A stretch of DNA of 64,000 nucleotides from the NCBI GenBank assembly GCA_003194525.1, contig NBIV01000002.1:868001-932000 (forward strand), given 5' to 3'. The translations under genes were made by a program, and so were the position numbers. The notes under the pieces were generated by a model. The model did no database searches, had not been told where the DNA came from, and saw only the letters and a program-made list of their open reading frames with translations. How positions within the stretch are numbered: position 1 is the first letter of the stretch; every line of letters begins with the position of its first letter. Shown one piece after another: positions 7,055 to 44,300 of this stretch. The DNA comes from Gracilariopsis chorda (taxonomy: Eukaryota > Rhodophyta > Florideophyceae > Gracilariales > Gracilariaceae).

Positions 7055-10000
7055 TTACCCAACTTGGGCATTTACCAGCGTGGCTGGAGCTGCAGTTCGC
7101 GTTTGACGGTGGTATCGCACGACCTGCGACCGTGGGAGGTGTTCGATTGGCTCCCACGTATCCCCACTGGGGTCATACTCGTACCAGCGGACGCGGTATT
7201 GTAGAATACCATCCTGGTCCCAGGTATGTCCGACAAGTCGGTCTACTACGAACCCTCGTTCGTAGACCTGCCGGCCGTGCCGGGTGGTGGTTGTACTTCC
7301 TTGCGGGGGCTGCCCGCTGTGCGGTATAATGTCCCTTAGCAGGGTGTTCGGCGATAACTCTGGCGTTGCCGTGCGCTGTGATAGCGGCCGCTGCTCATGC
7401 GGGAAGATATCCCTCAAGAGGGTGTGTGGTGCCACGGTTTTCACCGGCAAGTCATTCCCCATTGGGGCAGGTTCATTTCCGCTTTCGCGGTATTGCGGGC
7501 GAACCGCCAGTCGGCGGGGGACTTGGGCTCCGCCTTCGCGGTTCAGCTCACGAACCGCGAGTTTGCGGGAAGATGACCGCTCCTGCGGGATCGGCATTTC
7601 CACAATCCCCTGGGGGGTCCCGTGCGACACGGTGATTGGGTGGCAAACCGCCTCCCTGCCAGGCGCACGAGCGCTCTGCACCATACGTTCCGGCGATGCC
7701 GTTGTGTCCCCGGCTACTGACGGGTTACCTGGGGCTAACTCCGGTACACCGGTATTTTGGTCAAAATTCCCCTTTGGGGGGTGCCGGGCAGGTGCCGATG
7801 ACACCCTTTTCAGGGGCTTGGCCGCTAAGTGCGGTGCACCGTCTCCACGCGGAGGAGCAGCGTCCGGTACGACCGGTTTCGAGCGTGCGATGGCGCGCGT
7901 TATTCCCGAGTTCCTCGGTTCTTCGCCGCAGCGTTGCGGGGGTTGGCGCAAATTATTCCCCGTAGCGGGGGCTTCGATTCCGTCAACGACGGGAGGCGTT
8001 TCCGGTGCTTGCGAGCCAGGGCTTAAAGCTTCGACTGCGGCTTGGCTGCCTTTTTCCTCAAGAGGGGTGTGGGTATTTCCGTGTGAGGCCGGCGTATCTG
8101 GGCGCCCCTTCTCCACAAGCCGCGGGTCTGATCGACCTGATTGAACCGCTTCCGCGGGGGCATCCGCCAGTGGCGGCTTCGAGGCATCGCCCTGCTCAGG
8201 GGATTGGGGGCAATCGTCACCATACTCCCTTATCGGGGATCCTTCCCTGACAGGGGTGTGCGGTAGTTGCGCTTCAACTTCCCGTGTAGCACGGTATATT
8301 TTCCGTGTTTGTGGCGATGCCTCCGGGGGTGGATCGGGCGATTGCATTTCCGCTGCTGCGGTATTGGAGGGAGGCTTCTCGTTTTCCCGTGACAAGCGGT
8401 GCATTTGCCGCTTTTGCGGGGCCTGCGCGTCTGGTTCCTGTTGCACAGCACTGCCCGGGAACGGGGGATTAGTGTCGCGTGACATACTCCGTGCTCCGCG
8501 GTCAGTGTTCTGTATGTTACGGTGTGTTTCCCGTTGCGACGGCGATATCGTTCCTCGAAAACGAGTGTTCTCCTCCCCCTCCTTAGACGGAGCGGCGGGA
8601 TAAGGGATAACATTCCCCGCCTGGCGGGTATAAATGCGCGCCAGTGGGGCAGACGTGGTAGGGGCGGGCGCTGAGAGGCCCGAATTACCCGGCTGAGCCG
8701 GTGAGTCCGACAGAATCGGTAGGTCTGAGAGTCCCCGGCTGGGGTGTGGTAGTACCGTAGGCCTAGTACTCCCGGATGGTTCCGGTGTTGCAGAGTCCGT
8801 AGAAACGGGGTTGCCTGGATCCAGGACTACCTCTGACGAGGGAGGAGGGGCAAGGACAACACGATCACGGGAAATCCGTTCGTGCGTGTCGCCCATCTCT
8901 ACCACGACAGTGTCGGTGTTTACATAGATGACCTGGAATGGTCCATCCGCCACAGGCCAGAGTTTATGGCGCTTCTCCCGTTCCGGGTTGTAGTACTCCT
9001 TCCTGAAGAAGACGTAGTTATTCGCCCGAATCGGGGACGGTTTCCCTCGCAAGCGAGCATCAAAATCCCGCTTGTAAGCGGCTTGGGCCCGTGCCATAGA
9101 CCTCCGCGCAGCGGGGACCAGCTTGGAAAGCCATTGATTCCATTGCTGCCGGTAGATACCCACAGATGGGAAATTGTCCAAGGTAGCTTGGGGTTCCAGC
9201 GCCACAGGCGGGGGTGTGTTAGATAGAACCAACTCTAATGGCGAAACTCCGGTAGTCCGGTGTACCTGCGTATTGTACGCGTAGGTTACCGCATCAGCGT
9301 AGAGATCCCAATTCGTTGGGTGGTCAGCGACGTAGGAACGTAACGCCGCGAGTAACGTCCGGTTAAACCGTTCAACTTTCCCATTACATTGGGGGTGGTA
9401 GGTAGTCGTGAACAAGTTCTTGACATCCAGGATGCGACAAACATCCTGGAAGAACTTGCTCACGAACTGCTTCCCGTTATCGGAGAGCACCTCCACAGAG
9501 GGACCGTAGACAAAAATCCAGTGCGTCACCAGAGCCTGGGCCACCGTGAGAGCGGTTATCCTCCGAAGAGGGACAGTCCGTACCAGCTTAGAGAAGCGGT
9601 CGGTAATGACAAGTAGAAACTTGTTTCCACGTTTCGTGGTGAGTAATGGTCCGAGAAGATCAATTGCGATAAACTCAAGTGGCGCCCTTGCGGGGAATAG
9701 TTTCATCTTCTTCGCATTTTTGCGGAGCTTGACGCGATTCTTCGCGCATTCGCTACAGAACCGCACAGTTGCGTAGCAATCCACCGCCATGGCGGGCCAA
9801 TAGAAATCCCTTCGCAGGGTTAGGTAGAGTTTCCTCCCACCTGGGTGACCTCCAATGGGGGCGTAGTGTGATAGATGTAACACCCGCGATTGCAGGGAAT
9901 GTGGTACCAAAATCTGTGGGCGGGCTTCGACCTTCCTTACGAGGTAGCCTTTGTCGTTTACCCCGAAAGGGAGATCTTCACCACCGTTGATACGGCCACG

Positions 10001-12763
10001 AATTCTCGTACAGAATGGGTCGCCGAATTGTTCTCGGATCATTTCTTCCGGTGATACCGGTACAAAGTTTCCCGGTAACGGGTTCTCAGATTCATCTCGC
10101 GATGCGAGTAGTTCGTCAAAATCAGCATCCTCGTCCCAGTTTTCTGGCCCAGCCTCGACGGCACATTCCGGATCATCCGGGTCTATGGCCATGAAACATG
10201 GGACTTCATCATCCTCCGTTGGGAGTGCTTCCCCACTTGTGGGTAACCGCGACAGAGCGTCGGCTTGGGTGTTCTGCGCGCCCTTTTTATAAATGACTTG
10301 AAAATCATATTCCGCGAGGCGGAGTCTCCAGCGCATGAGGTGTCCCGACGGGTCGGAGATATTCATCAACCACCTCAATTAGGAATGATCCGTGTACACG
10401 GTGAAGTGAACTCCCATAAGGTAGGGGCGCAGAGTGGTCATCGCCCATACGACGGCGAGGCACTCTTTCTATGATACGGAGTAGTTCTGCTCATGAACAT
10501 TGAGCGAGCGCGACCAATAACCAATTGGATGTCGTTCCTCCTCGGGGGTGGTTTGAAAAAGAGCACACCCGACTTGGTAGTCGCTCGAGTCCGTATCTAC
10601 AGAGTATGGCAACCCCAGTTTTGGGAGATGTAGGATTGGTGCTGATGTGACAGCCTCCTTTAAGGAGTTAAAAGCTTCCGATTGCTCGGGCGTAAATGTT
10701 CCCAGTTTTGGGGGGTTCCCCTTTCGCAACAACGCGTTTAGGGGGGCCGCAGTATCCGAAAAGTTCGCGATAAACCGTCGATAGACGTTGACCAGCCCCA
10801 AAAGGGAGCGCAGTTCCGTTTGAGTACGGGGTTCTTTCGCCTCGACGAGGGATTTGACTCGAGCTTTCTCGATCGCTAACCGTCCAGGACGGATAATGTG
10901 ACCCAGATACTTCACAGTATCTGTGAAAAACTCGCATTTCCTCAACTTGAGGGTAATTCCCGCATCGCGGAGTACGGTCAGCACGTCTCGGACGTGAGTG
11001 AGATGGTCGTCCAACGAGTTGGAGAAGATGATAATATCATCAAGGTAGACCATACAGCTCCGCCACTTAAAGCGGTTGAGTAGAATATCTACTGCACGCT
11101 GAAAGGTGGCGGGGGCGTTGGTTAACCTAAATTCCATCCGCTTGAAGCGGTACGTTCCTGCGTGGCAGGTGAATGCGGTTTTGTCGCGATCCTCCTGTCT
11201 GACAGGTACTTGCCAATATCCCCAATTGGCATCAAGGGCCGTGAACACGGTGGCGTCTGCAAGGGAGTCAATGCACTCGTCCATACGAGGGATAGGGTAC
11301 GTGTCCCTAACAGTCACGGCATTGAGCCGGCGGTAGTCGACACAGAACCTCCAGGTTCCGTCGGCCTTTAAAGCCAGTACAACTGGGGATGCCCAGGGTG
11401 ATTGAGCGGGTTCAATCACACCTGCGCGGAGCATCTTGTCCACTTGGGACTGCTCCTCTTCCCGAGCTTTCGGACCTGCCCTGTAAGGGGGTTGTGCAAC
11501 CGGTCGCGCACCGGGGATTAAATCGATCCGGTGTTCCGTTGCATTAATCTCGCCAGGCGAGGCATCCCAAATTGTGGTAAATTCCCGTAACATTGTACGG
11601 AGTTTGTCGCGGTGCCACTCTGGCACGTGGTTGAAGTCCAGCGCTTCAAGTGCCTTTTCCGGATCAATCCGGTCGTTGTTCGATGGAGCATTGTTCTGTG
11701 GAACAGGTGTGGTTCGCAATTCCGAGTTACTCGGTGTGTTCGACGCTGAAGTAGCGGTTTCCTCCCCCTCCTTAGACTTGACGTCTTCGGACGGCGGGGC
11801 GAACTCCTCAGAAGAGGTGGTAACTCCGAGTACATCGGCGGCTGTCATCTTCGTTGGCAGCATTCCCATAGGATGGGGGGTTACACTCCCAATTACTTGG
11901 TGTTTTCCCAGATACTGGGGGTGTTTGCCAAGGTTGGCAACCAATATCCTGAAAGGAACATCCGGGGAAATGGAGACAATTCCATTAGCCAGCGCCAGCT
12001 GGGATTTCTCGTACAACGAGGCAAGGGGTTGTATAACCCGAAGACCGTGTTGACTGGAATTTACCTGCACCCAGACTTGGGACTCAGCCGGTATAGAAAC
12101 TGAGGTAGCGACGCGGAGCTTTGTGGACTCGCGGGACGCGGGTGGTGGTTCCTGCGCAGCAGGGAGCGGAACTTGTTTCCGAGAGGACCGCTTTAGCGGG
12201 CGGCGAACAATCGGAACCGACGATCCGTCGTCAAGTTCTACACGCCTGAGGCGGGGCCTGATTGCGTCGACAAATCTGTCGCAGTAATCACATCCCAGTA
12301 TCACTGGTGCTGCCAATGAATGGCAAACGATGAAGTCCAACTTCACCCCAGAGGTACTAAGTCTCACGACGAGGTCCATTGTGCCCACCGTTTGTAACGG
12401 ATTGTTGTTCGCATCCGAAATGTCGGGGACCGCGTCAGAGCAGATACGCGACCGCACAAGCGGGGGTAACAATGATTCCACAACAAAGTTGGGGCGTGCA
12501 CCTGTATCCAGGACGGTGAGAAACCTCACCATAAACTGGGGATCAAGGCCAAGGTCGGCATAGACCTTATAATTGCGCTTGGCCAAGACCAAGACTCTAC
12601 CGGGAATCCGGGGATTTTTACTCCGTATCCACGGGCGACGCAACACACCGAGCTGCGCAGAGTCTGCGTCAGCGGTGTCTTTCCTCGAGAGGACTTTCAC
12701 CGGGGAGCGAGGCGAGGACGCCTCGGGCGCCAACAGCCTCGTTTTTGAGGACGCCTCTCCCAA
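7055..12763 (-). pseudogene. gypsy copy 1 Pol: protease, RT, RNase H, integrase, chromodomain
   Basis: From the ATG at 12763 the minus strand encodes an aspartic protease (DTG at residues 86-88), reverse transcriptase with FCVDYRRLN and a YLDD active site, and RNase H. After two stops (TAG near 10469, TAA at 10379-10381) comes the rest of RNase H (YTDHS), an integrase with an HHCC zinc finger and DDE triad (residues 240, 300 and 336 of the second open segment), a very long Pro/Ser/Arg-rich linker and a C-terminal chromodomain (FVVDRLVGHTWDQDG...WEPIEHL). The normal MPFGLTNAP of RT reads MEFRLTNAP here, a further defect. The ATG follows the gag stop by 17 bases in the -1 frame, so frameshifting or reinitiation may have expressed Pol. 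Confidence 0.95.
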
Positions 12764-15892: not shown

Positions 15893-18800
15893 GAGCAAGT
15901 GCAGATGAAGTACATTTCGAATCACCATAACAGAAACACCCAATTTTAGTTTCAAATGGTGGTGCGGGACTCCAGTTGGAGCGTAATTATACGTCAGTTC
16001 AGGTCCACTGATACTATTTGTGTGAAAGTTTTCAACGGTTGGCCCTCGGTTGGGAACGATCGTGGTTGCAGACTTCAAGTCAAACATCCTTCCTGTAAAT
16101 TACTCCAATGCGTCTTGGTTATGTTCCTCCACTAATTGATTTGTTGGCGCAACAATCAATCGGTTGAGCTTGACATCTTCTTTCTTCCGTGTTGAAAACC
16201 ATTTCCAAAGCAACTTGTATGCTTCGTGTACATCTAACGTAGACATAAGCGGAAGCCTTGCTGATGCTGGAAACGTCCCGCGACCAAGACTGAGCAAACC
16301 TTTCGCAAAACCTGGATCATCTTGTTGATGAACCTGTTCTGTAAGGCGAAGAACCTTGACTCTTCTGTCCCAAAGCTCGCAAGAGTACCATGGAAGCTCC
16401 CGTAGGAGACTCACTGGGGTAACACGAATTGTTCCATCCCTTTCGGACACTGTTCTTGTTCTTGGAACGACTGGAAGCAGTTGCATATATTATCGCCTGC
16501 CATAACTACGACCATGCCTCCAAAGTCTTTCGTAGAGTTTCTTAAGTCCTTCAGTACGGTGTTCACAAGAGCATTTTCGGGCACATTGAAGCTTCATCAA
16601 TTACCAGCAAAATAGTCTTCCGTACTAGTTCTGCACTCTGTGATCGTGGTCCGTACTTGGAAAGTGTCCGACGCTCTCTACTCTGCGAATATTTGTGTTC
16701 ATCAACTCCCAATCCAAGCAAACTATGCAAAGTTCTTCCGCCTTCATATAGGGCAGCAGCAATACCTGTTGTGGCTGTCATCTGCACCAATAAGTCTTCG
16801 TGCTCAACAATATCTCTCAGCAAAGATAGGAGATAGGTCTTCCCTTTCCCCCCTCGTCCTTGTAAGAAGAAAACGCTTCCGTGTGTGTTGCGTCTTTCAG
16901 ACTCTCCCATTCTATCTCGGTATTGTATTTCTCTCATTATTTTGTTAAAACTTTGCTTCTGGCCTTCTTTCAGATCCTCATATCTCTCTTTTAACCTTCG
17001 CCTGGACCTCGAAGAAGAGCTGCGACGTACTTCAGCTTGTTGCTCTTCTAATTGCAGTTCGCTCTCTCTGAGATGAAGTTGTGATACAGTATGATGAAAG
17101 AACGGATCTTTTCTGATAAGCCGACCACCATGTCTGTCCGAAATCTCAATGATTCTTCGAAGTAGTTCTTCTCTTCTTTGTGCTCTGTTTCCCTTGGTTA
17201 TATCTGCAGTTAGAGCTCGGTCGTGCTTTTCAATCACAGTTTTAGGATTTATCGCTTTTTGAAAGGAAGTGACGACCAAGTAACGCAGCTCAGCAGGAGT
17301 AGCATGGTATCTTACTGCCTCATCAAAAGCCGTTTCGTACTCGTCACCATGGATAAATAGTCCACGGGCTACTGCCGCTTCTCTATAAGTTGAGTAGGAT
17401 TCGCTCCCAACACGTTTCGGATCATCAAAGGAGCTGAATGCAGAGTTCATGAGCAATATTCGAAGAGCGAATAGTTCGGGATTTGCGGGAGAAGCAAATC
17501 TAATTCGAGTCACAGTTCGATCATTTTCGGATCGCGGCACTACGTACATTCGTGGACTTCCTCCATCCCGAGTGGAGTCAGACTCTGAAACAGAGCGGGG
17601 TCGCTTATCGTATACACGTACAGTCTCGTAGTATGTCATGTAGTCCAAGTCCATGTACCGGGAGGGTCTTCTGAAATATCTTTCCAGCAGGGAAGACTTC
17701 AGACGTCTAGGCAGTCTTACGTTTCGAATCAAAACCTGTCGCTATCCACGGAGATGTATGTCAAGTGCCTGTACAGTTGGATTGATGCGAACATGCCTGA
17801 ACTCAAAGACGTTCCATGCAGCTTCAACGGCGCCCACCACTCTCGCTCTCATGTATGCTCTGATCTCATTTAGAAGCATGTCGCTCTGTGCACTTGATTG
17901 GCTTTCCGCTCGACTTGATACAACCAAATCCTGTTCTTTGGCACTCTTGAAGGCATACTTCATCAAATATGCTACGGCGCTGCCACCTTGGGTTCTTTCA
18001 ACATTTATGTGAGCCTTGTACTTCATTGTGAGATCTGGATTGTACGGAACAACTTTCAAATCTTCTGTCCTACTTCTTCGGTAGGCCACTCGATTTGTGT
18101 ACTCATTGATCGTTGTTTCAGCAACAATTTCTTGTCGATCATACCCAAATCTGCACCTCCTGTCAGAGGTACGACCACAGCAATATGGAGAGTGTCTGTG
18201 CATATTGAATTTCTTCACCAACTTTCGGAGTTCCTGGTCCTCATTCGAGTCACCCCGAGGCAGTTCGGCTTTGATCAAAGGGTCAATGATCTCAGGATCT
18301 TCAATTACGCCCCCTTCCAACCAAAGAAGAATGTGATGATGTGTAGTATTTCTCTCCTGGAACTCAAGTTTGGCGGCAATCCCAATGCATTTCAAGCCAA
18401 AGAGCTCTTCTGAATTATTCTGTAGATCCTTCATGACTGAATTTGCATACTGATTGTACACTCTATCAATAAGATCTGGTCTATCAAAAGGACGGCATCT
18501 GTCTCCCTGTGGAGAAAATGCTCCGGTGTTTTCGTTGTCCATACTAAGCCTCTTCATCTCTTCCCGCCTTACGTTCATTGTGACTGTGACGAGAAGTGTC
18601 GGGGAGCCCAGTCTAGCTACCATTGCTTGCACATCCAGTCGTTTTTGTCTCCAGTACGCCGGAGCGTTTTTGTGATTACTGGGAAGGAAGAGTTTACCGG
18701 GAGGGCCAAGTTCACCTGTTCCGGTATGGGTTCCAGCCTGCAGCTCCCGTTCTTCAACCATTCTCATCTGTTCTGTTTCCAAGTAACGAAGTCTCAAGTC

Positions 18801-20281
18801 TTAAATGTTTGTGCTAGTACGAAGCATCCTTTGTTGAAGAAGAGTACCAGAGTTCAGCAGCACATTATCGGCGTACAGTCTTCGCTTAGAGTGTTCTGCC
18901 CATGTTAGGCTCCTTTCGTCTCGGTTGTTCGCATCCCTCGATGAAATATATGTTGCTGTATCATAAGGGGCATGAATCTCACCGTAAGGGTAGAGCAGTG
19001 GAAAAACTCCCTTCTCAGCTTCCATTGAATCAGGCTTCAAACGCTTGTACTTGACAACTCGACGTCCAAGATTTCCGGTTGACATGTGATGGGATTCTCT
19101 TCCGCCTACGAGCTGGGCAACTGGGGCTTCCGACCTGAACAGTCCACTTGGCTCTACGACGAAAGCTCTCATTGCAAGAGGTCGGCCTCGGCTGTCTTCT
19201 GGTAACGGTCCTGCACCAGAGCTCACCTCTATTCGGGCTTCATGGGCACCTTGATAATTCCGGACAACTATTCCTTCCTGAGTAGCGTCTGCAGAGATGT
19301 CCAGAGTAGACTCATCCGCGTTTGATCTCCTGCGAACACTTTCGTCTGGTCTGAACAAATTCCTATATCTTTGTCGCACAATATCTGGTCTTGGTTGCAT
19401 GAGATCGTACAACTTTGGAACCAAGTATCGAATATTCGGGTTAGACACCATTCTTCTCGTGAAAGAAGAAGAATAATTCCGTGAATTAAGACTGGGAGGA
19501 CCTTCCGACCACAAATATGTGTAGTGCACGTCCTGGCCTGGAACGGAAAGAGACACATTGCCTTGAAGTCGAAGAAATGACGGACCTCCACCACGAACGT
19601 ACTTCATATCCATGAATGTGACAACGGTTGCAAATAACACATTTAAGTGTGTTGATAGCGTTTGAAAAGAACGCAAGCGATATATGTCTTCAAGTTGCGA
19701 ATTGATATGCACTCGTCTGAAAGAAACTCCAAGCGATCTGGAGCTTTTATATCCACAGCATGTTCCTTCGGTCTCTGCACCAAGCAGAACTGCGCCACAA
19801 TATTTGCACATATGAATACGAAGCACCCACCCCGAATCTTTGAGAGGACACCGAGGTGTCGATGGCCGTTTGCACCGCACGTCCCACAACACGCTGGAAG
19901 TGTGCCAGTGAGTGGTTGGTACTCCGGATATGAAGATCTTGGGCGTGCGAGTCCTTGACGAATATTTTCTGCACTTGCATCCCAGACATATTTTGCTCCA
20001 TAGTGAATGCCTTGGCGAGGTCTCCCAGCGAGCTGCATAACCGTCCTATCTCGTTCCTGTTGAATACCGGAAGAATGAGAGGAGTTCAAGTATATCTCTT
20101 AAGGGTTATGAGGTTCCATAACATTTTGAGGAAGCTCCGTTCTAGTTCCTAAGTCCACCTGCGCAAGCTCATCGGTTATGTCTCGTTGATGCACGTGGTG
20201 TATATTCTCTCTTGGACGAAGGCCTGCTCCTGACCGGCGAACAACACGTCGTGATGGGGGTCGATGCGAAGAAGAACTCAT
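15893..20281 (-). pseudogene. Helitron A Rep-helicase, N-terminal and central part
   Basis: Minus-strand RepHel protein. An N-terminal Arg-rich region and a Cys-rich zinc-finger-like part (CKYCGAVLLGAE...CC) precede the Helitron-like domain. The Rep domain shows the HUH motif THHHILLW (18333-18341) and the paired tyrosines in AYLMKY (about 17955-17969). The Pif1-type helicase has Walker A GRGGKGKT (16836-16859) and Walker B LLVIDEAS (about 16593). The frame is broken by stops near 20099, 18801, 17742 and 16100 and by frameshifts near 19890 and 16485. The protein continues at 5974-5564 across the gypsy element. Catalytic residues are intact despite the breaks, so decay is fairly recent. Confidence 0.9.
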
Positions 20282-29674: not shown

Positions 29675-30861
29675 GTACACTGCAAAGACAAATGAAACTC
29701 CAAGAACACCCATAGCAGTTTAAAAAAGAGAAGAATATTTGGTACCCGCAAACCTCACTTAAGGCTACCAAATCTTTTTAAGAACCTATTACCAACGTTC
29801 GTTTTTGATGTTTGAAAGGAAAATGAAACAAATTGACCACCAAAATAGCCTCTTTTGAGAACCAAACTGTATAGAATAAAACAAAAACCGTGGCTAGAAC
29901 GTTGAACAGGACTGCAACATTTATAATTCTAGTTTTGTTCGGCACTTTAGTGCTACACGTATTTTAGTTCGTAAACCGTGTATCTTGACCAATTTTTTCA
30001 GATCCAGAGAAAGCTGCTGTTGCTCGACTCGCACCTGTGGTCGCCTTTCTAGACTCTTCAAAGACTAATCCTTCAGCGCAATAGAAATTGTGTAGAGAAA
30101 TATTGTACCTTACGTGAAAGTCGCTCATAAATAGCTGCTGAACAAATTAAATCTGGATGGAAAACGCGTTATTCGGAGAGCAAGATACACCTAACAGATC
30201 CCTCCAGTACGGCCAGCGTACCTTTCTCAGACGTCCTGACTCGCCCAGAGCGCTAGAACCCACACCCGTAATTTAACCACAGCGAAAGAGAACGCGAGCG
30301 CTCAGTGGGCGAGGGCATTGCAGGCTTTTGTATAGCGTGCAATGCCATTGGTGCACATGAACGTTGAAAAATACTAATTAGAACCGTCATGTGCACTCCA
30401 CTGCAACGGTCGGTTACTGTAGTGAAACGGGTGGGCTACTGTGGCGTGCAAAGGGCGCCTGGTGGAAACGTGTCGCATTATGCGGCACAAGATGCCTCTT
30501 GGAGCGCATAAAGTTACACGTTTCCACTTGGCGGCCTCCTTGCCGAGTTCCCAGCCAATGACTGGCCGTAGAGCATCACACAGACAGACAGACAGACAAT
30601 CATTGTCTTTAGTATAGTGCGCCGGTGAGGAGAGAGGAAGAGAGGATAGTGGTGGTTTCTCGGCTTACCTGTTTCCCTTTGAACTTCGAAGTCTCCGTTA
30701 CCTGCAACCTCAACCCATGGCATTCCTGCTTTCGTGAACCAGATGTGCCGCCCCGGACAAACCGGAACCAAATGTCTTTCGCAGATCAGTCTGGGATCCA
30801 TACACATTCTCGCCACAGTGCATGCCACATTCTCTTGTTTCTTGGAAACCCATGAGCAACA
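29675..30861. other. kinase upstream region
   Basis: About 1.2 kb without a supported gene. It includes a short CAGA microsatellite (30579-30598). It should contain the kinase promoter and leader; an out-of-frame ATG lies at 30852, ten bases before the chosen start. Confidence 0.5.
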
Positions 30862-33800
30862 ATGAACGGCGCAAGAAAGAGATTCACTCGCGTCCACGAC
30901 TTCTACATCTTAGAAACCTTGGGTGTGGGTGCTTTCGCTAAAGTGCGGCTTGCTATTCACTGCGTAACACAGGAGCCTTATGCCTGCAAGATTCTTGACA
31001 AGAGCTTCATTCGGCAACGCGAGCAGAACCGACAAGTCAGGAATGAGATAGACGCGTTAGAGCGTCTGAACCATCCCAACATCGTTCGTCTCGTTGACGT
31101 CATAAACACTTCAAAGCGCGTATATATAATCATGGAACTCGTGTCCGGCGGGGAGCTATTCGACGTCATCACGAAACAAAGGAGACTCACGGAGCCGCAA
31201 GCTCGTTTTTATTTCCATCAGCTCGTCGAGGGCCTGCACTACTGTCATAAACGCGGCGTATTTCATCGAGATCTGAAGCTGGAAAACATTCTGCTCAGCA
31301 CTACTGGTGTCCTCAAAATAACAGACTTCGGCCTCTCGCAGCTCTTGGTTGGGCCTTTTGACGGCACTGAGTCATTCAACTCCACTGTGTTGTTCAGCAC
31401 TCAATGCGGAAGCCCATATTACATTGCGCCGGAAGTTGTTGTTGTGAAGGGCAAGGGTTACTCTGGTGCCAAGGCCGATGCGTGGGCGTGCGGCATCATT
31501 CTGTATGTGCTTGCTGCAGGATGCCTACCATTCCAAGCGTTTTTGAATTCAGGGAACAACGCCTTCATGTTCCACCTGGTCGTAAAGGGTGGAATGAACT
31601 ACCCAGAATCCTTCTCAGAAGAACTTAAAGATCTCATCGGTCACTTGTTGGAACTGGACCCAGACCACAGATATGCCATGCCAGCGATAATGAAGCATCC
31701 CTGGTTCAATGGTCCCTGCCAAGACCCAGGTCGACACCGCTCGGACATAATTAAATCGCAGGTACCGCAAATAGTAGCGGCGAGGTTAGGTTCAGTCCCA
31801 ATCAATGCATCCCAAGCCACAAGACCACCTGAGGCCAACGACACAGTCCCCGATGCTGTTATGGAGACCGATGACAGTCTTAACTTGGGAAAGCGCGTTG
31901 ATTCCTTCGAAGGAACTGCCCCAGCAGCACTGCTTCCCATGGCTTCAGGATACAGTGATGCATATGAAACCGACGCAACTTTGAATGAGTTCAGGCAGGA
32001 AGAAAACTACTTACTGCGTGCGACAGAGGTCCAGGCAGCGACCATCGCGGAGAATCAACTCGCTGAAGCATACATCGCGCAGCATGGATTGCCTGTGACG
32101 TACAGTTCCCAAGACCCTTCACTGCCGCCGTACGCTGTAGAAGTTCCGCAGTGCCCGGTCCCTCCCCAAACGTATGCCGTGGAACAAAGGCAGTTTGACA
32201 CGGGAAATACTCAAGTGGCATATTACTATGATCCAGGATTGCCGTACACGGCACCTGTTCACCAGAATGTCGAAACAGCGAAGGCTGCTCCCAAGCCCAA
32301 TATTGATCTACCCTCTTACGACGCAGATGATTCCATTGTACATAATTGGAATGTTCTTCCTAGTGATTATGAAGTAGGAGAACACACCCATCTCCTTTCA
32401 CTCGATACCAGTGCAGTGCAGAACGATGATGACCAATTACGTCGGGTGCGTTCAGTAGGAGATATGAAGTCTCAAAAAGGAAAACGAGGAGCTCAAATTA
32501 GGAGAACTAGGTCCGCCCCTGCCATGAAACCATACTCAAAGTTTCCAACCAATGCCCGGCCGTTCCGATTGCTAAGCCTTGAGTCTAAGAGGGGCACAGT
32601 TCGCTTGCAGCTGTGGGAGCTTTCGATAAATCAATGGCGGTCGGAATGTGTTCCCATATCTGACGAACAACGTACACAAAAAGTCCGAGAAATCTCAGCC
32701 AGTGTGAAAGCCAAGGGCGATAAAGTCGATGAGCCTAGAAGTGCGTGCAAGCCTAGACGGTCCTCATCGGGGCAAGTCGTGCGTTTTGATTTGGAACCAA
32801 CAGATCATGGAGTTCATGGGTATGATTCTCAAATACCTCGTGACGGTAAACCAGATGAAACTAGAGATCTCCGTCAACGAGAGAAAAAGAAGTCTCATGT
32901 TCGCTGGTCAAATGAGGAAAACACTTGCGCCGTATCAAATCCTGAGGATCCCGATACAGTCGACCGAAAGAGAGACAAAGAAATGAACGGTAGGAAAAGC
33001 TGGGTGTCCCATTGCCGAAGCAATGACTATCAATTGGTTGACAATTACGTCGAATTTGGTCTTCCGGCGGATGAGCTAGCACGAGCATGGGATAGAATTG
33101 ACCTTTTTGATGACACTGAGAAAGACTCACTAGGTCCTATTCGAGCTCTAATATCATCTACTCGTTATTCTTCTCAGAATACTGCCCCATCAAATGGTGC
33201 GACCCATGTGAGACCATCTGGCGCTTCCGCAAGCACGTTCAGTCCCGGGGAAGGTGACGTTACAGCTCACATTAGTGATCAATGCCATTCCGATGATATA
33301 ATTAGAGCAGGCGGTTCAAAACAGTCTGTTGGATCACCACATAACGGGTCATCTTCAACTCCTCAACGTTCGGTGATGGACAGCACTCGGTCTGAAGAAA
33401 TAGAGCCTGGTAGAGCCCCAGTTGTGGTTGGAAGAACACCTTCCGGCAGATATATTCTCAAGTCATCATCCCGATGTTCTGCACGCCGTGCAAGAGGAGC
33501 AACGAGATTTCTGAGCGGCAATTCGGTTGATACTGCTTTCCATGACCTTTCCGCGGACCTCGCGCCTGACCCAAGGTGGGTAGCTGGATCTGCTCCGGTC
33601 TACCCCAACAACTCAGAGCGAATCCCTATTCAAATCAATGAGGATGTCGAGAACAGCCACCTGCTCGCTGATCCGTCCCAGTACGAACTACCCGGACCTC
33701 AAACTGAGTTTCCTAGTTTTAATCCATTCATATCACTGTTACCAAGGGGAATGACTTACAAAAACCTCTTGGCTATGTTCAAGTCCAGACTAAGGCCCCG

Positions 33801-34143
33801 GGAAGACACGCAATTCCGCACCCTTATCGAGCCAAACGAATGCAAAAGCATTCTAGAAGATGTCTTGAGGGAGTGCAGGTGTACTAACATAAAGTGTACC
33901 AAGAAATCCAAGGACCGTTTCCGAGTCAAATGTAATTTCAAAACGAAGGAAGAAAACAGTGCTATGATTATGACCGTAGCTAGACTGGATGATGGGCTTT
34001 CCAGTGTGCAGTTCACAAGTACAGGTGGTGGCAATCGATCTGATCTGCAGGCGTTCTATAGGTTGGTAACGAAGAATTTCCATGAGAGAAAGAGTTGGAA
34101 CGCTGTGACGTCAAACAGAGAAGACCATGATGAACAGAACTGA
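30862..34143 (+). CDS. Ser/Thr protein kinase, CIPK/SnRK3-like, with KA1 domain
   Basis: An intronless 1093-residue kinase. The catalytic domain (about 15-285) has the Gly loop LGVGAFAKV (20-28), Lys43, Glu62, HRD (135-137), DFG (155-157) and APE (189-191), all intact, and ends HPWF. The pattern GELFDVITKQRRLTEPQARF and HRDLKLENILL places it in the CaMKL group, closest by eye to plant CIPK/SnRK3 and SNF1 kinases. The middle (about 290-950) is long, polar and low in complexity. Near the C-terminus FNPFISLLPRGMTYKNLLAM (953-972) resembles the CBL-binding NAF/FISL motif, and a KA1-like domain follows (about 985-1075). Calcium-sensor regulation is inference. CIPKs are usually 430-480 residues, so the middle insertion is notable. 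Confidence 0.88.
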   Translation: MNGARKRFTRVHDFYILETLGVGAFAKVRLAIHCVTQEPYACKILDKSFIRQREQNRQVRNEIDALERLNHPNIVRLVDVINTSKRVYIIMELVSGGELFDVITKQRRLTEPQARFYFHQLVEGLHYCHKRGVFHRDLKLENILLSTTGVLKITDFGLSQLLVGPFDGTESFNSTVLFSTQCGSPYYIAPEVVVVKGKGYSGAKADAWACGIILYVLAAGCLPFQAFLNSGNNAFMFHLVVKGGMNYPESFSEELKDLIGHLLELDPDHRYAMPAIMKHPWFNGPCQDPGRHRSDIIKSQVPQIVAARLGSVPINASQATRPPEANDTVPDAVMETDDSLNLGKRVDSFEGTAPAALLPMASGYSDAYETDATLNEFRQEENYLLRATEVQAATIAENQLAEAYIAQHGLPVTYSSQDPSLPPYAVEVPQCPVPPQTYAVEQRQFDTGNTQVAYYYDPGLPYTAPVHQNVETAKAAPKPNIDLPSYDADDSIVHNWNVLPSDYEVGEHTHLLSLDTSAVQNDDDQLRRVRSVGDMKSQKGKRGAQIRRTRSAPAMKPYSKFPTNARPFRLLSLESKRGTVRLQLWELSINQWRSECVPISDEQRTQKVREISASVKAKGDKVDEPRSACKPRRSSSGQVVRFDLEPTDHGVHGYDSQIPRDGKPDETRDLRQREKKKSHVRWSNEENTCAVSNPEDPDTVDRKRDKEMNGRKSWVSHCRSNDYQLVDNYVEFGLPADELARAWDRIDLFDDTEKDSLGPIRALISSTRYSSQNTAPSNGATHVRPSGASASTFSPGEGDVTAHISDQCHSDDIIRAGGSKQSVGSPHNGSSSTPQRSVMDSTRSEEIEPGRAPVVVGRTPSGRYILKSSSRCSARRARGATRFLSGNSVDTAFHDLSADLAPDPRWVAGSAPVYPNNSERIPIQINEDVENSHLLADPSQYELPGPQTEFPSFNPFISLLPRGMTYKNLLAMFKSRLRPREDTQFRTLIEPNECKSILEDVLRECRCTNIKCTKKSKDRFRVKCNFKTKEENSAMIMTVARLDDGLSSVQFTSTGGGNRSDLQAFYRLVTKNFHERKSWNAVTSNREDHDEQN

Positions 34144-34868: not shown

Positions 34869-34872
34869 TTAA

Positions 34873-35054
34873 CCCCGTTTCCGTAGGGTGACAAATTTGC
34901 ATCTCCCTTTCTTTGTGGTGCAATCGGGTGCACAGGTTGCAGTGCATCCTGTCCGGGAGATTTTGCCTCATCCAGAAGTGAATTTCACTTAGACACCGGG
35001 GAGAGGTCACCTCAAGTGCGAACCAGTGATCCCCACCAGTACCATCTTGCCGCG
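34873..35054 (+). repeat. left terminal inverted repeat of the piggyBac element
   Basis: 182 bp, inverted match of 40341-40522 with scattered differences; both inner ends reach GCCGCG. Long TIRs are unusual in piggyBac, whose repeats are typically 10-35 bp. Confidence 0.9.
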
Positions 35055-35534
35055 ATTCTTTTGATGCTCTCTTCTTAACTTAAGCCTTCCTCATTCTCAG
35101 CGGCTTTCTTTTCAACGTTTTAATCTCCTGTATATACTTCCTTGCGCGCTCAACATCTTTCTACATCAATCAAAACAAAAGATAACTGATGGTATACAGC
35201 TTTAGTGTCTCTCCACACTCCCTTCTCATTTGAAAGAGCTTATAAAAAATCACACTATTGCTACAAAAGCGTCGAGCATATCACGGCTTGTCAGCATTCT
35301 TGTTCACAACCTCGTGTAAGTCATAAAAATAAGTGATGGAAATGCACGCAAAACAGCTTTTCACATACTACAAACTATTTTCCTGACCTTTAACTGCGAT
35401 GCACTCAATTGCGGAAATGATTTCCAACACACGAACAGTAAGCTTCGTACAACGCATTATACTTCCTGACTTTGCGGCTTTTGCAGCTCATCTGCAGGAA
35501 TTTACGCGCGTTCTAAAACTTCCTCCGTATGCTA

Positions 35535-38500
35535 TTTGTCCCAGCATTTCTTGCAAAGAGCTTGTCTGCGAAGACTACACCACTGTTTTTGCCGTGCTCC
35601 TCCTCTCTTTTGCAATTTCTTTCCATTCTTTGTGATTGTGCAATTGTAAGAACACAGTGAGCAATATCTCTTCTTCCCATTGACCTTCAAGTGCAGTTAT
35701 TTGTTTCCCAATGTTCGTTTTTTGTCATGCAGTCTGTTGTATAGCACAGGAATATTACGACTGTAGAGCGGTTCGACGATGAACGGGATAAATCGAACGC
35801 CAGATTGGGAAGCAACTCTGCCATTGTTACTTGAACAGCTTAAGAATCTTCTTTCAGCTTCTCAAACTTCGACATACTCTTTTGCCAACTGTCGTACGTA
35901 GTCTGGAAATGACGCACATTTTGAAACGATCTTTCTGATTTCTCTGTACCCTTTCGAACTGTTTGCATCATATTGGGGAGGAAACACACCTTTATGTCTT
36001 GCCAAAGGCAACCGATGCACAATAGCTCCATTTTGAACTTGTGCACATAACAAACGGCCTATAATGCTGACCATTGGACTTTTACCAACGTTAGTGTAGA
36101 ACATGGTTGTCATAGCTTGGCTAAACTCATCCACACCTCCTTTCAAATAGTTCCAGTAGACAAACGCTGTTGGTCGAATCATCTGCGTGGGAGGCAGCGT
36201 GCTGTTTCGGCGAGCAAGAGAACGATAGGCCTGATTCAAGTATAGTACGAAGCATAAGAATTTGTAGTGCAATACCCCGATTGGAGCAGACACACAAGGG
36301 TGTTCGACGTCCTCCTCTGTGAGGGTAGCGCAGCGGCAAAACCACCTGTGGTGAGCACACGAAGCCGGGTGTAAGACCGGGGCTCACCGTCACGACTAGC
36401 GTACAGGTGTAGAAACCAAGACAGACCACGAAGTGGGAAAGCGGAAAATGCAGCGACACACGAGTGGTGGGCGACGCACAAGAGCGGTGCGGTGTCCACA
36501 CGAGTGGGGCGGTGGTAGCAGAGCAACGGTAATCACCGGTAGTAGCAGAAACAACGACACCTGTATACGGGACAAAAGTACAATAACCGCTGTAAAAGCG
36601 TGCACAAAAACAAACACAGTAGTGGTAAGAATGTGCTGAAGCTCCACGAGGTGGGTAACTAGGCCTTCACAGGATGACGTCTCTCCAGATGGAGGTGGAC
36701 ACTCACCAGGGAACCTGAGTTAGAGCCAGACACTCGCTTGCTGCGTTTACTTTGACCCGGGCAGCCGGAGCTCACACACATAAGTAGTGGTGGCCCGCGC
36801 CCTGACAGTACAGTAGTAATTAACTAGTAATATCCCTGAGGGGGTGCGAAACTCTACACACGTGTGGCACAAGCCAGCAATGCTGTGCACTACACTTGTC
36901 AACGAAATTGGGGCCCTTCAAACGGAAACAACATACCGGTGTAACACTCATACTCCATGGTAGAGAGGTTAGCATCGCCAACGCGGAATATGACGGCACC
37001 ACGTGCTGATACCGCTATTAGCGTTGCACTTCAGAATTCAGATCAGAGGCATGAGAGGTCTGTAGAAGATCATCATACATGCTCGAAATTTTTGATGCGT
37101 CCTTTCCAATCCAAGGAAACACCCCATCTCGGAGAGCAGCTAGGAGATAACTGTATATTGTTGTCAATGTTTGATGGAAATGCACAATCGTGGCATAGAT
37201 TACGCCTCCTACCCCCAAGTTGCTTCCTTTGGCCTGCAAAAACATAACCTGCTTAACGCTCAACGATACTGCATGATGCAAGCACTAAATTCGGTACTCC
37301 GCAGACGGAACAAGCTCGTGAAAGAGTTTTGTACTCGCCTCGTTTTGGCCAACGTTGATGAGATGAGAAACTGCAGAGTGGGTCGTGCATTCGTTGTTTT
37401 GAAGCGTCAACGGTGTTCAACGAGGTCATTGTCTTGATCTCAACTGCACAAACATGCTGTTCTCCGTCATTGTCAGTAAAGCACAGGACGTCGTCTGGAC
37501 TGTCTGAAACCATTGGATCTCTGCGAGAAGAAATAAGTCCTGTCGTTCGAATATACTCTACTTTATATTTTAACTTTTTGTGCGAACCCTTCGACATCTC
37601 GAGTTCATTTCCATTGATCACAGCATTAGATGCAAAGAAAGACGGTAGTGCTTTTAGCACCTGAGACTCATTGAAACTCCCTTCTCTCATTCCTGGGGTA
37701 CTCACGAGAGGCTTCACTATCCATGACGTCAGTGAAACGCGGTACAGAGCCTCCAGCAACTTTTTCATCTTCGCTTCCTTCCGTTGTAATGGGCTGAGTG
37801 TGTGCAATACGATGCTGTTAAGCTGCTTTGTACCAGCCTGTACCTCCAATTTGAGCAACATTACCTTTTCTATCAGTTTAGATTTTGCGAAGTGCTTGCG
37901 ATTGTCTGTGTCCCACCGAGCTGAGACGTGATAAAATGTCATTCTTTGTCCGGTTTTGAAGTGTCTCAACGGAGGCCGACATAACTGTACTGATTGCCTG
38001 TTCTTGCTTTTCCCAATTGGGCGCTGTCTTCGTTTCTATATTCAGAGAGTGGCATAGTAAGATTAATTTCGATACCAAGCAACCCCTAGTCTCTGTCTCG
38101 CTGATCGGAAACGATACATGGCTATAGTCGATCTCTTTTCCACACATCAAGAATGATAAAGCTTCTACGTTGATCTCGTAGTCCTCACATAGAGCTCGAA
38201 TGAAGTCTTGGGATGTTCTGGACGTTAAATGGAATGCTCTCCCAGGAAACCAACCAGGGTCTTCAGACTCTAACAAAGTTACTTCATCAACATTGGAGAG
38301 AACCTGTCGTACTTTCAACCTTGCAGAGCTGTCCGTGACATCATACTCACAATTTCTAGATTTTGTTGCTTTAGAAACAGAGTTGTCAAAGGCGAAATGA
38401 AAGATTTCTCTTTTGACTGCCCCCTTGGTTGTTTCATAACCTGGCTTCGGAATCAATTTGAACCTGGTGGCTGAAAACAATCGGTCATTGTTATGATACA

Positions 38501-40290
38501 AAGCTGCAATACGACCACCCAGACTCTAGCGATATACGATCGCTTCAACAGTTCTTCCAGCTATGGTACCGGGCTTTCGACGTGCGCTATATATTCCCCG
38601 ACAGCCTCGTTGGCTGACAAACCTACCTTTATGCTTCTTGCGTATGGGTCCATCCCCAAACACAAAGGGGTAGTCCAAGCTCCGTTTGTGTGTCCCAATT
38701 CCTCTGGCCCCCACTCTCTCGTTGATGTAGTCTACCGTGGCTTTGGAGTTGTACCCTCTGTCAGACGCAAAAATAGCGTCCACCATAGGTCGCACAAGCC
38801 CAGCAGTGGGAACGCCTTCTATAAGTCGAATCCATCGTTCCCATACGTCGGTCACTTTTCCTCCCTGCCTTGAGTAGTGACTGGCAAGAAACACATGCGT
38901 AAGAGCGGAACACATCGAGTTATTCACAGGCCCAAGATCCTTTTGTGGATTATTGACGTGAGACAAAGTGGTCATTTGCGCAACAGCCCTTGATCGTAGC
39001 CTCTGATGATCATCGTCCAAACTGAAAATAGTAACACCAGGAACATACAAAATTAAACGATAAACTGAAGCCAATTCGTCTTCCAGCTCAGTTATCAAAG
39101 CATTTTCACGCTGCTGATAATTAAACCAACCTCCATCTACGTTCTCAACCCTCTGCCGTCGGTCCGGTGTACATGATAGTGCTGCCCAAATTTGAGAATA
39201 GCGAGTACTTGGGATGTTCATCTCGAAAAAGAACTGGTGATTCCTCTTCTCTGTGATCGTGTCCACTGTAGAGTTGTACGATGCAGCCAATATTTGCAAG
39301 ACTAACAGGCCCTTGAACTCGAAAATGACAGTTTCTTTTTGGCTTCTGAGTCGCAGTAATCTGTTCACATTAGAAACAATTTTAAGAAGTACATGCTCGG
39401 GAAGAAAAAGATCAAATTCATCTAATCGTAATATCGTTGCGGCTTTGAACGTCTTTGAACCTTTCTGCTTTGCTTCATTTCCTACTTTCTCCAGAATTGA
39501 ATTATTTTCCGACACAAATCTTCTTCCAAGTATATTGTTGATTCCATCGATATCCATCGAAATTTGTTGGAATGGTGAACTATAATCCCAGCCAGTAAGC
39601 CCATTTTGTTCTCCTACGTTCCTCACGTCCTTCATTATCACCATCTTTGGATTGTTCTGCAGAGCTGTGTGTATCAATGCTAGCATCCATCATAGTGTCA
39701 ACATAGTCGCAGAATACAGAGGACCAGATATCCTCAACAGCAATTTTTCGTGCATCAGCTGCATTGGATGGAGCTCCACTGACACCAGTTCTGTAGCTCA
39801 TCGCATTTTCTGCATGTAATTCGCGCAGTTCTTGCTCCGAAATATAGGAGTCTATATCTGTATTCAATGATTGTTCGTCTTCTTTTTCCTGTGTTGCAGA
39901 ATTTTCGTCTTGTAAAACGAAAAGTTAATCACTCTCCTCTCTGTCAGAAGAAGGTTCTGAAAGTCACTGCTGACTTAATGAATTTTGTCCTTCAGGAAAA
40001 TTCTTCAATATAGGTTGAGCCGCAATATCTGTGCTGAGAAGAGTACTTGCAGGCGGAGATTCAATTGGCGTCATGTGGCATATTGAAGACAATACTGTTT
40101 GATGGGGTGTCAAATTTGTCTTAGATAGACCAGGTGAGGAGCAATGGCTCTCATTGCCATGATCTTGTGGAGACGGCGAGTAGGAGCGTTCATTGTCCTC
40201 ATCATACAAGTGGAAGGTGTCAATTCGCCGATCGTGTGTATTACATGCTGATGCAGAACGTTCAGGGTTTCTATTCATGCTTAACAGGCT
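35535..40290 (-). pseudogene. piggyBac transposase with inserted PD-(D/E)XK nuclease domain
   Basis: Read right to left. A Ser-rich N-terminus (about 40279-39964, then 39867-39580), then the catalytic core: first Asp in FSLDDDHQRLRSR (39011-39017), second in ASDRGYNS (38762-38760), third in KGGVDEFSQ (36131-36129). These match piggyBac D268, D346 and D447. Between the second and third Asp lie about 615 residues (solo LTR excluded), where piggyBac has about 100. This insert contains MVSDSPDDVLCF...VEIK (37433-37510), the D-ExK signature of lambda-exonuclease/YqaJ-type nucleases, with an upstream NESQVLKALPSF helix. A Cys-rich tail (YCSLCSYNC...WCS...LCKKCW, about 35680-35540) matches the piggyBac C-terminal zinc domain. 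Breaks: TAG near 38524, frameshifts near 37930 and 37255, the solo LTR, and further breaks near the N- and C-termini. Confidence 0.82.
36258..37038. mobile_element. solo gypsy-type LTR, TSD GAATT, inside the piggyBac transposase
   Basis: A 771-bp LTR (36263-37033) starting TGTAGTGCAATACCCC and ending GTTGCACTTCA, so related in its ends to the gypsy LTRs of this window. GAATT flanks both sides. Removing it rejoins the transposase between HASDLN and KFLCFVLYLNQAYRSL. Internally it shares the segment GAAGCCGGGTGTAAGACC with the other LTRs (GAAGCCGGTTTGTAAGACC there). Confidence 0.9.
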
Positions 40291-40340
40291 CAATGAAACT
40301 CGCCAGTTAATAGTCGTGAATCTTCAAATAAATAGACGCA

Positions 40341-40522
40341 CGCGGCGAGATAGTGCTGGTGGGGATCACTGGGTGGCACTTGAGGTGACCTCTCCCCGGT
40401 GTCTGGGTGACTTTCACCTCTGGATGAGGCGTAATCTCCCAGACAGGGTGCAGTGCGACCTGTGCACCCGATTGCACCCTTAAAAAATGGAGACGGAAAT
40501 TTGTCACCCTACAGGAACGGGG
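40341..40522 (-). repeat. right terminal inverted repeat of the piggyBac element
   Basis: Partner of 34873-35054; followed by TTAA at 40523-40526. Confidence 0.9.
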
Positions 40523-40663
40523 TTAAAAAGCAGCCCATTCAGACTCACAAATTCGAAAAAAAAGACGCAAACCCTTAGTAAAGTCGATTGAATTTCTTGA
40601 GTAGTGTTGTGCGTTCTGAGCACACTGTCTTAAGCGTATCGATTCTGCCCCTTCTTCGGTGTC

Positions 40664-41331: not shown

Positions 41332-44300
41332 TCAGAAGTGACGATGTACGCCACACAGCAAACCCAATGTTTGCAGACGGTCTTGCCTCAACGACTTAGT
41401 AAACACGTCGGCAGGCTGCATTTCAGTTCGCACGTATTCCATGCGAACAATGCCATTCGTGACCAATTCTTTAACATGGTGGAACTTCAGAGCAATATGC
41501 TTGTTACGCTCAGACGCTCGGGCATTTTGGACGATTGAAAAAAGGGTGGAGCTATCAGTGAATACCGGGATGGGATACATGTCTTGCAGTTCATCTTCAA
41601 CGATGGTTTCATTCAGCATTTCCCAAAACAATCTCCTTAGCCATGTCACGGCTTTTCCGCAATAGGAGAGTGCGATGTATTCAGCCTCTCCAGACGATAG
41701 CGCAATTATTGTCGGCTTCTTTGTAGTCCAAAGAATGGGTCTTTCGTTTACCTTTACCAGTAAAACAGTTGTAGACTTTCTGGTGTCCTTGCAACCAGCC
41801 CAGTCTGCATCGCAATACGCTTCCATCGGCCCGTTGGCGCTTGATGAGAAGTGGAGGCAATAGTTCTTCGTAACTTTCAGGTACCTTAACAACCTTTTGG
41901 CAAGTCCAGCATGTCTCTTTCCAGGAGCATGCACTTGCCTCGCTAGCATTGAAGCTGCGAACATGATGTCAGGCCTTGACGTTACAGCCAAGTACATCAA
42001 ATGCCCTACCAGTTTTCGGTATCGGGCGTGGAGCACAGTGGACAGACCTTCTTCGTCGTCCTTTACATCCGTCAGATCACAAGGAGTAGGCAACGGAGTT
42101 TGCGCAGGATTTGATTTCACTAATCCGTACTCCTCTAACGTCTTCACGACGTATCTTTCTTGTGATAAACAAATGCCTTTGCTGTCCCTGTCGGTGTCCA
42201 TCCCGATTAAAGACTTTGCTTCACCAAGAAACTTCACTTGAAAGAGTTTCTTCATCTCTTCCTTAGAGTAATCCAGGAGAGATCTTGAGTCCGACAGCAT
42301 TAGTACGTTGTCTACTACAACCACGAGTACAATAAACCCAATACTCGACTTGTAGATGTACAGTCGGCTTTCCGTTCTCGACTGCCAAAATTTTAGCTTT
42401 AGAAGCTTTGAATGGAATAGCGATCCCCAGATGTTTCCGGCTTGTTTCGCACCATACATCGACTTCAGTAGTGGGCAGACCTTTTCATGTTGATATGACG
42501 AGCCCGACGCATTGGTAGTCTGTTCCATTATTAGTGGTTCGTCCAAGTCTCCGTATAAGTAAGCGTTACTTATATCCAAGGCTTCCAGTATTAAACCTTT
42601 TGCAGCCGTTTTTGCCAGCCCGAGTCGGATTGTCTCTAGCCGTGCTACGGGAGCGTACAACTTTTCTGGATCGTAATCCAAATACGCCTCCTGTTTGTCT
42701 CCTCCGACCACACATCGAGCCTTCGGCAGTACCTTCAGTGGCTTGCTGGTTATATGCTTCGCGATGAACGTCCACAGGAATGGCAGTGCTTTCATTTCAG
42801 GTTTCCGGTCCACCAGCTTCCACGTCTTTCTGCTAGTTAGAGCCTCGTACTTTCTATTGATTGCATCGACCCACTTTGGAATGTTGCGTGCATCTCTAAA
42901 GGTGTTTGGAACCGTGAGTTCCTGTTCCTCGTTGTCATACCTTGCCCTTGATACCAAATACTGAGCTAGAGATGCGTCCATATATTCCTCGTCGGCATCT
43001 CGCATATTGCTCTCGGCTTCTTTTCGTTTCAAAGAGGAGAAATCAATCAGTTGATTTATTGAAAGGAGTCTTTTCTTTGTGACCGTGAAGTCCTGTTGTC
43101 TACATTTCACTACCTTGCGTAGCGAAGGAATGTAGATCCGGTACAGAGTTCGTAGGCTTTGCATTCCAACAAAATGACCGGGACGTGCGCGAGGCAAGAG
43201 CTTTTTGTTGGGAACAGTCTCTGACCTGTAGATAAATGCATGTCCCTTTTGTCCAAACTTCAGAAGTCTCGAGAAGTCTGGCTTTCTCTTGAACCATAGT
43301 GTGTAGGGAATCTGCATACCTACACGGGAGTTTGGTAGGCAGTTACGTATCCAGTTTGCGTGGGATATCGCCTCTTCCCATAGTTCTAGAGGGAGTTGTG
43401 AAGCGTGCAGAATTGTCCTTGCAGTTTTCCAAAGGTCTTGAATGATCTTTTCTGCTGCTCCATTCGACTGGTGGGCGTATGGCAGAGTGTACTCGAAGAC
43501 GATTCCGTTTTCTGACGCGTATGCGATGAAGTCGTCAGATCAGTTTTCACCCGCCCCTTCAAGGCGAACGCCGTAGAGTCCATGTTCTCGTAACTCGTTC
43601 TCTGCGCGCGCCTTGTACCATCTTATGGAAGGGAAAAACTGCCGTTTACTATCCAGAAAGCATATAGATGACGACCTTGTGTTTTTATCAAGGAGAACCT
43701 GCATATACCTCGAGCCTTGTAATGAAGGTGGAGTAATCGGACCAGTAAGGTCTGTATGCACCAGCTCTAGGGGCTTCGTGGCCGTTGAAGATGAGGGTTC
43801 CACGGCAGCCCTTTTGTCTCTGCTTCAACGCATTCTGAACATTGGATGTTGTATACCTCGCAGCGTAAGAGGTTTCGGATCCCTATCGATTGTTTTGAAC
43901 AGGACAAGAGCCTATCCTTTCCTGTGTGACCAAGTCTGTCGTGCCAATCTTTGGCGGTGTCACCTGGGAACGGGGTTGCCGTTTGTGCTCTTGGCGGGGG
44001 AATAGGGTTCGGAAACAGATATAGTCCGTCCCTCTCTTGTGACCGGTAGAGTACATCACCAGAGTTCGGATGTTTGATGATGAAGCACGTGGAATCTAAG
44101 TTGTTCAAGAATTCTACCCGAGTATGTTGTGCAAGGATTGAGAGGGAAATGGGGTTAGAGTCGAAAGATGGAGTTTGTTTTGCGGGAAGACTCAATCCAT
44201 CTCCCAGTGGGAGTCTTATTGTTCCATATCCTTCGATCCTAGACTGGCGGTCGCATGTGCGCACTGTTTGGTCTCCAGTACGGTGATAGCCCCAGAACAA

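Follow-up and report, generated by a model that had tools for sequence, protein, structure and literature searches.

A lambda-exonuclease-like nuclease within the catalytic core of a piggyBac-like transposon family from red algae

Nucleases resembling lambda exonuclease are already known from transposons. KolobokE elements combine TTAA with such a nuclease (PMC9587614), and ISL2EU elements, members of the PHIS superfamily, encode a YqaJ exonuclease-domain protein, the role of which is given as unknown (PMC4482050). When a piggyBac hairpin is opened, a 4-nt 5′ overhang remains and is present as a flap in the strand transfer complex; a small, β-stranded insertion domain contacts target DNA and lines the target channel (PMC7351741). 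Here, we analyze an element at positions 34873-40522 of a 64,000-nucleotide stretch of the Gracilariopsis chorda genome (contig NBIV01000002.1, positions 868,001 to 932,000; hereafter, the window), together with its relatives, in which a nuclease lies inside a piggyBac-like core. In a literature search covering sources outside subscription journals and Repbase entries, no piggyBac element with an inserted nuclease appeared among the top-ranked results, so an earlier description in those excluded places is possible.

The window copy by itself would leave the assignment unsettled, since its nuclease piece (YqaJ, E 0.024) and its transposase piece (DDE_Tnp_1_7, E 0.091) both score below the Pfam cut-offs. 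The intact relatives are more informative. In copy C177 (L049:1037-5092), all domains lie in one stop-free frame that spans 1,351 codons (1,349 if counted from the initial Met). A protein search retrieved nine relatives. Seven of these are 1,260-1,391 amino acids long and close to full length; with the L049 protein, they make up the eight full-length proteins referred to below. The other two, P0009 and P0010, are shorter and stop before the third catalytic Asp. P0002, at 57% identity, is named as a transcript and has a complete frame, and P0005 is a Chondrus crispus protein with a piggyBac-derived UniRef name. All eight full-length proteins align in the same order: first and second catalytic Asp (D1 and D2), a QxEDPxWF motif, a stretch recognized as SAP in P0008, the nuclease core, the third Asp (D3), and a Cys-rich tail. 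D1 and D2 are separated by 85 residues and D2 and D3 by 619-626 residues throughout, close to the D2-D3 spacing of about 615 residues that the original prediction had read from the window sequence after removing the solo LTR. D1, D3, and the GG-x-D motif at the third Asp are present in all eight proteins and D2 in seven; P0007, which lacks D2 and the Asp of the nuclease PD motif, looks decayed. The C-terminus carries a conserved Cys/His tail, with a B-box above the Pfam cut-off in P0008. The intact relatives thus almost certainly encode one protein of ~1,350 residues, with a lambda-exonuclease-type nuclease and a SAP-like segment between D2 and D3 in the slot of the insertion domain. The exonuclease domain is apparently split by the SAP-like segment.

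The same arrangement recurs across the G. chorda genome (91.3 Mb, 1,081 contigs). At all 20 nuclease loci examined (L009-L028, including that of the window), a third-Asp region lies just downstream, with Asp at 19 loci and Ser at one, and the 17 loci that reach far enough all have a D1/D2 region upstream. Many of these loci are decayed, and the Glu of the ExK motif survives in 14 of the 20. Searches for nuclease-less relatives and free-standing nucleases returned 26 and 18 proteins, respectively; each scored ~8,000 candidates sharing the most words and therefore covers close relatives. Of the six proteins inspected among these 44, five appear to be fragmentary members of the same family, and the sixth, P0053, is a distant relative. 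Within that reach, no intact homolog was found in which the nuclease is absent or a separate gene, outcomes that would have spoken against the predicted architecture. Seven stretches in viral contigs fitted a pattern, none of which encodes a relative. P0053 (27% identity) combines a SAP-like stretch and a nuclease with GGVN at the place of the third acidic residue, a layout suggesting that the nuclease-transposase fusion is older than the close family.

Assignment of the insert to the lambda-exonuclease/YqaJ-like PD-(D/E)XK nucleases, the failure of which would have counted against the original prediction, is supported by fold and motif, with a profile match above the cut-off in one protein. 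The Pfam YqaJ model (cut-off 22) matches P0002 at 25.3 bits; the other seven full-length proteins fall below the cut-off or give no match, and of eight isolated nuclease slices, two reach an E-value of 1 or lower, the strongest being 6.3e-7. Lambda exonuclease and LHK-Exo were the best fold matches to the insert within the full model and ranked among the top, tied matches when the insert was modeled separately. All eight proteins retain the catalytic E, E, K, and Q, and seven retain the PD Asp. The nuclease is very probably active. The predicted SPDD...VEIK signature (37433-37500) proved to contain the relevant codons in the window, with D at 37495-37493, E at 37441-37439, and K at 37435-37433; a further catalytic E lies at 37669-37667, and the Gln codon has decayed to a stop (37287-37285). 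The SAP-like segment exceeds the Pfam cut-off in P0008 only. We read the QxEDPxWF motif as part of the exonuclease on the basis of structural range and inspection by eye, as five of ten slices of this motif alone, searched against Pfam, gave no YqaJ match. PDB sequences were searched with single proteins and with profiles, without a useful match, and PHROGs and NCBIfam gave nothing useful either.

The transposase half was likewise placed by fold. The original prediction had called three Asp motifs in piggyBac order with a Cys-rich tail, and these features align in the full-length relatives. A profile match was sought as well; DDE_Tnp_1_7 (cut-off 22.4) stayed below its cut-off in the window piece and in P0008, which scored best at 19.5 bits, and gave no match in L049. 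The best fold match of the full model, however, is piggyBac.

Selection on the nuclease was examined through the ratio of nonsynonymous to synonymous substitution rates (dN/dS) in 12 pairs, of which only C177/C43 was usable for every region. In this pair, dN/dS was 0.24 for the part of the DNA-binding and RNase H regions covered by C43 (149 codons) and 0.27 for the nuclease (246 codons), followed by the D3 region (0.32, 139 codons), the SAP-like stretch (0.40, 47), the tail (0.41, 66), the N-terminal region (0.42, 188), and a spacer (0.73, 165). In this one pair, the nuclease is therefore under purifying selection and kept about as strictly as the transposase. Most pairs from distant sub-families show saturation at silent sites, and recent pairs carry few changes; among recent dead-copy pairs, the nuclease gave 0.81-1.07 in four and 0.09 and 0.28 in two with fewer than 80 codons. 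Values within the sub-family of the window copy are mostly near or above 1 and are uninformative because those copies are dead.

The bounds of the window element follow from alignment with related copies, which stops at 34869 and 40526, and from a 186-bp inverted repeat that includes TTAA, is 87% identical between the two ends, and reads TTAA followed by CCCCGTT at both. The original prediction had placed the bounds at 35535 and 39686, where no TTAA lies nearby; its expectation of TTAA on both sides held at the true ends, as did that of ends beginning CCCC. The SAP-like segment, the relaxed target choice, and the nuclease precedents in KolobokE and ISL2EU lay outside that prediction. Across the genome, the left terminal inverted repeat (TIR) has 17 matches, including the two in the window, and three sub-families have ends beginning CCCCGTT, CCCCATG, and CCCCGTG. 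The second and third Asp codons begin at 38762 and 36131, as predicted. The minus-strand gene is split over frames at 38526-39689 (N-terminal half, D1, and D2), 37878-38525, 37253-38035 (nuclease), and 35460-36262 (D3 and tail), and its decay comprises an in-frame stop, a frame change near 37885, the loss of the nuclease Gln, and an insertion. The last, which the original prediction recognized as a solo long terminal repeat (LTR), is flanked by a GAATT duplication and does not occur in any of the seven related copies that were aligned. It has at least 40 genome matches at 94-100% identity, its own included, with 40 of 248 candidates scored. On balance, the window copy is best read as a piggyBac-like cut-and-paste transposon that is now dead.

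Target preference in the family is broader than in its best-studied piggyBac relatives. Near the C177 copy lies an empty version of its insertion site, which agrees with the joined flanks at 115 of 120 bases and has a single TTAA at the junction. We read both ends of 18 independent insertions, counting C561 and C336, which share flanks, once and leaving out two weaker TIR matches (C305 and C314). Perfect 4-bp duplications were found in 14, and all 14 are NTAN: TTAA (window, C37, C177, and C42), TTAG or its complement CTAA (C561/C336, C86, C91, and the C255 copy of the window's sub-family), TTAT or ATAA (C66 and C43), ATAT (C403 and the C36 copy of the window's sub-family), GTAA (C147), and CTAG (C5). 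Counting the C255 duplication as perfect requires that the left end has changed in its first base and the right end has lost one C. In C37, C42, and C66, each taken as one interrupted element, 13-20 kb separate the two ends. The other four duplications carry one mismatch: C45 (ACAT/ATAT), C1 (TTAA/CTAA), a second C255 copy (TTCT/TTAT), and a second C36 copy (TTAT/GTAT). Five insertions were read at the left end only (C87, TTAA; C12, TTAC; C55, CATA; C307, TTAT; C181, TTAG), and right ends of C12, C181, and C917 were sought but not read. TTAA is still favored, accounting for 4 of the 14 perfect duplications, compared with 5% of the NTAN tetramers in the window. The family is thus less choosy than the strictly TTAA-directed relatives. 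Since strict TTAA does not hold family-wide (the window and C177 copies conform) and DDE_Tnp_1_7 stays below its cut-off, we file the family as a piggyBac-like lineage.

Two further observations concern these sites. The C177 and C1 insertions, from different sub-families, occupy the same TTAA of one repeated sequence in opposite orientation (L049 821-824 and 5269-5272; C1:77196 and C1:81799). Copies C561:16546-22225 and C336:11865-17542 share flanking bases at both ends and represent either a duplicated segment or two assembly haplotypes.

Taken together, the explanation that we narrowly favor is a dead piggyBac-like copy with a nuclease in its core, for which flap removal would be the likeliest task. 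The DDD core would nick the ends, make and open hairpins, and join the ends as in piggyBac. The 4-nt 5′ overhang, carrying the sequence of the old site, would then become a 5′ flap on the new target and, for an element moving among differing NTAN sites, would often be mismatched. A nuclease in the insertion-domain slot, where the domain of piggyBac lines the target channel, could degrade 5′ ends there; most likely it would remove the flap, and the gap would be filled from the new target, making sites unlike the last one usable. That the nuclease acts on DNA ends during transposition is somewhat more likely than not. Flap trimming in particular fits the perfect duplications of many tetramers, and we propose it tentatively, at less than even odds. 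The fuller version, in which a 5′-3′ exonuclease taken into the insertion domain frees the transposase from matching old flank to new target, so that any NTAN would be perfectly duplicated and one polypeptide would combine hairpin chemistry, joining, and trimming, is a bolder idea and rather unlikely in that complete form. Several points weigh against flap trimming. Host enzymes could equally remove the flap, piggyBac with altered flanks integrates well without such a nuclease, and resection of the donor break, considered below, is the main alternative role.

The relaxed NTAN targeting might instead stem from changed transposase contacts only and be unrelated to the nuclease, which we consider quite possible, if short of an even chance. 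The choice of TTAA has been explained structurally by contacts with the unpaired tetranucleotide (PMC7351741), and ordinary DDE_Tnp_1_7 elements of the same genome, with ends beginning TGTCTAT, have CTAG on either side, so a nuclease may not be needed for the tetranucleotide to vary. Those elements are nevertheless uniform, with CTAG on both sides in all 10 copies read at both ends (L001-L004, L006, L008, C203, C93, C90, and C96), unlike the nuclease-bearing group. Departures from the main tetramer number 10 of 14 in the nuclease-bearing group and 0 of 10 in the ordinary one (Fisher's test, p = 0.0006), a comparison of two groups only that implies no cause. The CTAG set excludes L005 and L007, the ends of which are rearranged or nested; one L007 end reads CTAT. 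The CTAG might also be part of the terminal repeat rather than a target duplication. In addition, perfect duplications of many tetramers imply that the donor overhang was replaced, whether by the nuclease or by host enzymes.

Alternatively, the nuclease could act once the element has left, resecting 5′ ends at the donor break, with homologous recombination from a sister copy restoring the element and raising copy number in place of the seamless closure usual for piggyBac. Lambda exonuclease is the 5′-3′ resecting enzyme of a recombination pair, and the insert, which matches its fold, has a SAP-like segment fused to the nuclease. The piggyBac insertion domain, moreover, lines a channel that later holds target DNA (PMC7351741). 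Resection would by itself leave the relaxed target duplications unexplained, and we view this role as credible and yet unlikely. A less probable proposal is that the insert serves mainly as a DNA-binding or architectural module, its nuclease activity being dispensable for transposition or serving another end, such as degrading competing DNA. The SAP-like segment would suit such a module, and the sections of the structural account that we used give the piggyBac insertion domain target contacts and no catalytic role (PMC7351741). Retention of all five nuclease residues in seven of eight proteins (four of five in P0007, which also lacks D2) and, in the one usable pair, a nuclease dN/dS as low as that of the transposase core make this improbable.

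Membership in Kolobok, as a KolobokE element, is very improbable. It would account for TTAA and the lambda-exonuclease-like nuclease (PMC9587614), and a conserved CxxH occurs at residues 995-998 in seven of eight full-length proteins. That CxxH, however, sits in a nuclease motif ~500 residues past D2, the ends begin CCCC rather than RR, and the third catalytic residue is Asp (GGVD) rather than Glu. KolobokE, according to its description, has the nuclease downstream of its transposase domain (PMC9587614), whereas here it lies between D2 and D3 in eight of eight proteins. No Kolobok entry was seen in the fold comparison led by piggyBac, an absence still compatible with Kolobok. Finally, a chance join of two unrelated decayed elements, which the broken frames of the window copy might suggest, is refuted by the single unbroken frame in L049 and seven further proteins.

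Table 1. Features of the nuclease-bearing element in the window
Feature	Position	Strand	Remark
Target-site duplication TTAA, left	34869..34872		
Left TIR	34873..35054	+	Starts CCCCGTT
Third-Asp segment, C-terminal half of DNA-binding region, and Cys-rich tail	35460..36262	-	D3 codon 36131-36129
Solo LTR (TG...CA)	36263..37033		GAATT at 36258-36262 and 37034-37038
Lambda-exonuclease/YqaJ-like PD-(D/E)XK core	37034..37747	-	Approximate limits; frame broken
SAP-like segment	37823..37964	-	Approximate limits; above Pfam cut-off only in relative P0008
Conserved QxEDPxWFLxRAFxFTSRT motif	38211..38270	-	Read as N-terminal part of exonuclease domain, from structural range and by eye
Transposase frame with N-terminal half of DNA-binding region	38526..39689	-	D1 39017-39015; D2 38762-38760; stop 38526-38528
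Remnant of poorly conserved N-terminal region	39658..39906	-	Different frame
Right TIR	40341..40522	-	
Target-site duplication TTAA, right	40523..40526		

The surrounding window holds other mobile elements. A Copia-type reverse transcriptase frame (RVT_2, 41335-43539) adjoins the element, an LTR retrotransposon remnant with integrase and chromodomain lies at 7058-10378, and a Helitron remnant at 16566-20045 comprises pieces of Helitron_like_N and of a PIF1 helicase in neighboring frames. Likely host genes encode a protein kinase (1,095 codons, 30856-34140) and a DEAD-box helicase (682-1995).

The slot that in piggyBac holds a small target-contacting domain (PMC7351741) is occupied here by a second, apparently active nuclease. 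The fused enzyme and the intact copy make the role of this nuclease testable. As piggyBac is widely used for gene delivery, a natural relative with relaxed target choice would be of practical interest.

The red-algal family shares with piggyBac of Trichoplusia ni and with piggyBat the DDD core, the helical DNA-binding region, the GG-x-D third Asp, the Cys-rich tail, ends starting CCC, and 4-bp duplications that include TTAA. Its D1-D2 spacing of 85 residues is near the 78 of T. ni piggyBac, whereas its D2-D3 spacing is ~620 rather than ~100 residues, with an exonuclease and a SAP-like segment in the insertion-domain slot and duplications that are NTAN rather than strictly TTAA. KolobokE has a Kolobok DDE core, RR ends, and a nuclease downstream of the transposase domain rather than inside the catalytic core (PMC9587614). 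ISL2EU pairs a PHIS-type transposase with a nuclease in a second, separate open reading frame (PMC4482050), where the red-algal protein forms one frame in L049 and seven relatives. Lambda exonuclease, LHK-Exo, and the YqaJ nucleases of phages and giant viruses share the fold and the E, D, ExK, and Q motifs of the red-algal insert. Those enzymes are free-standing, whereas the red-algal domain is built into a transposase and appears to be divided by a SAP-like segment.

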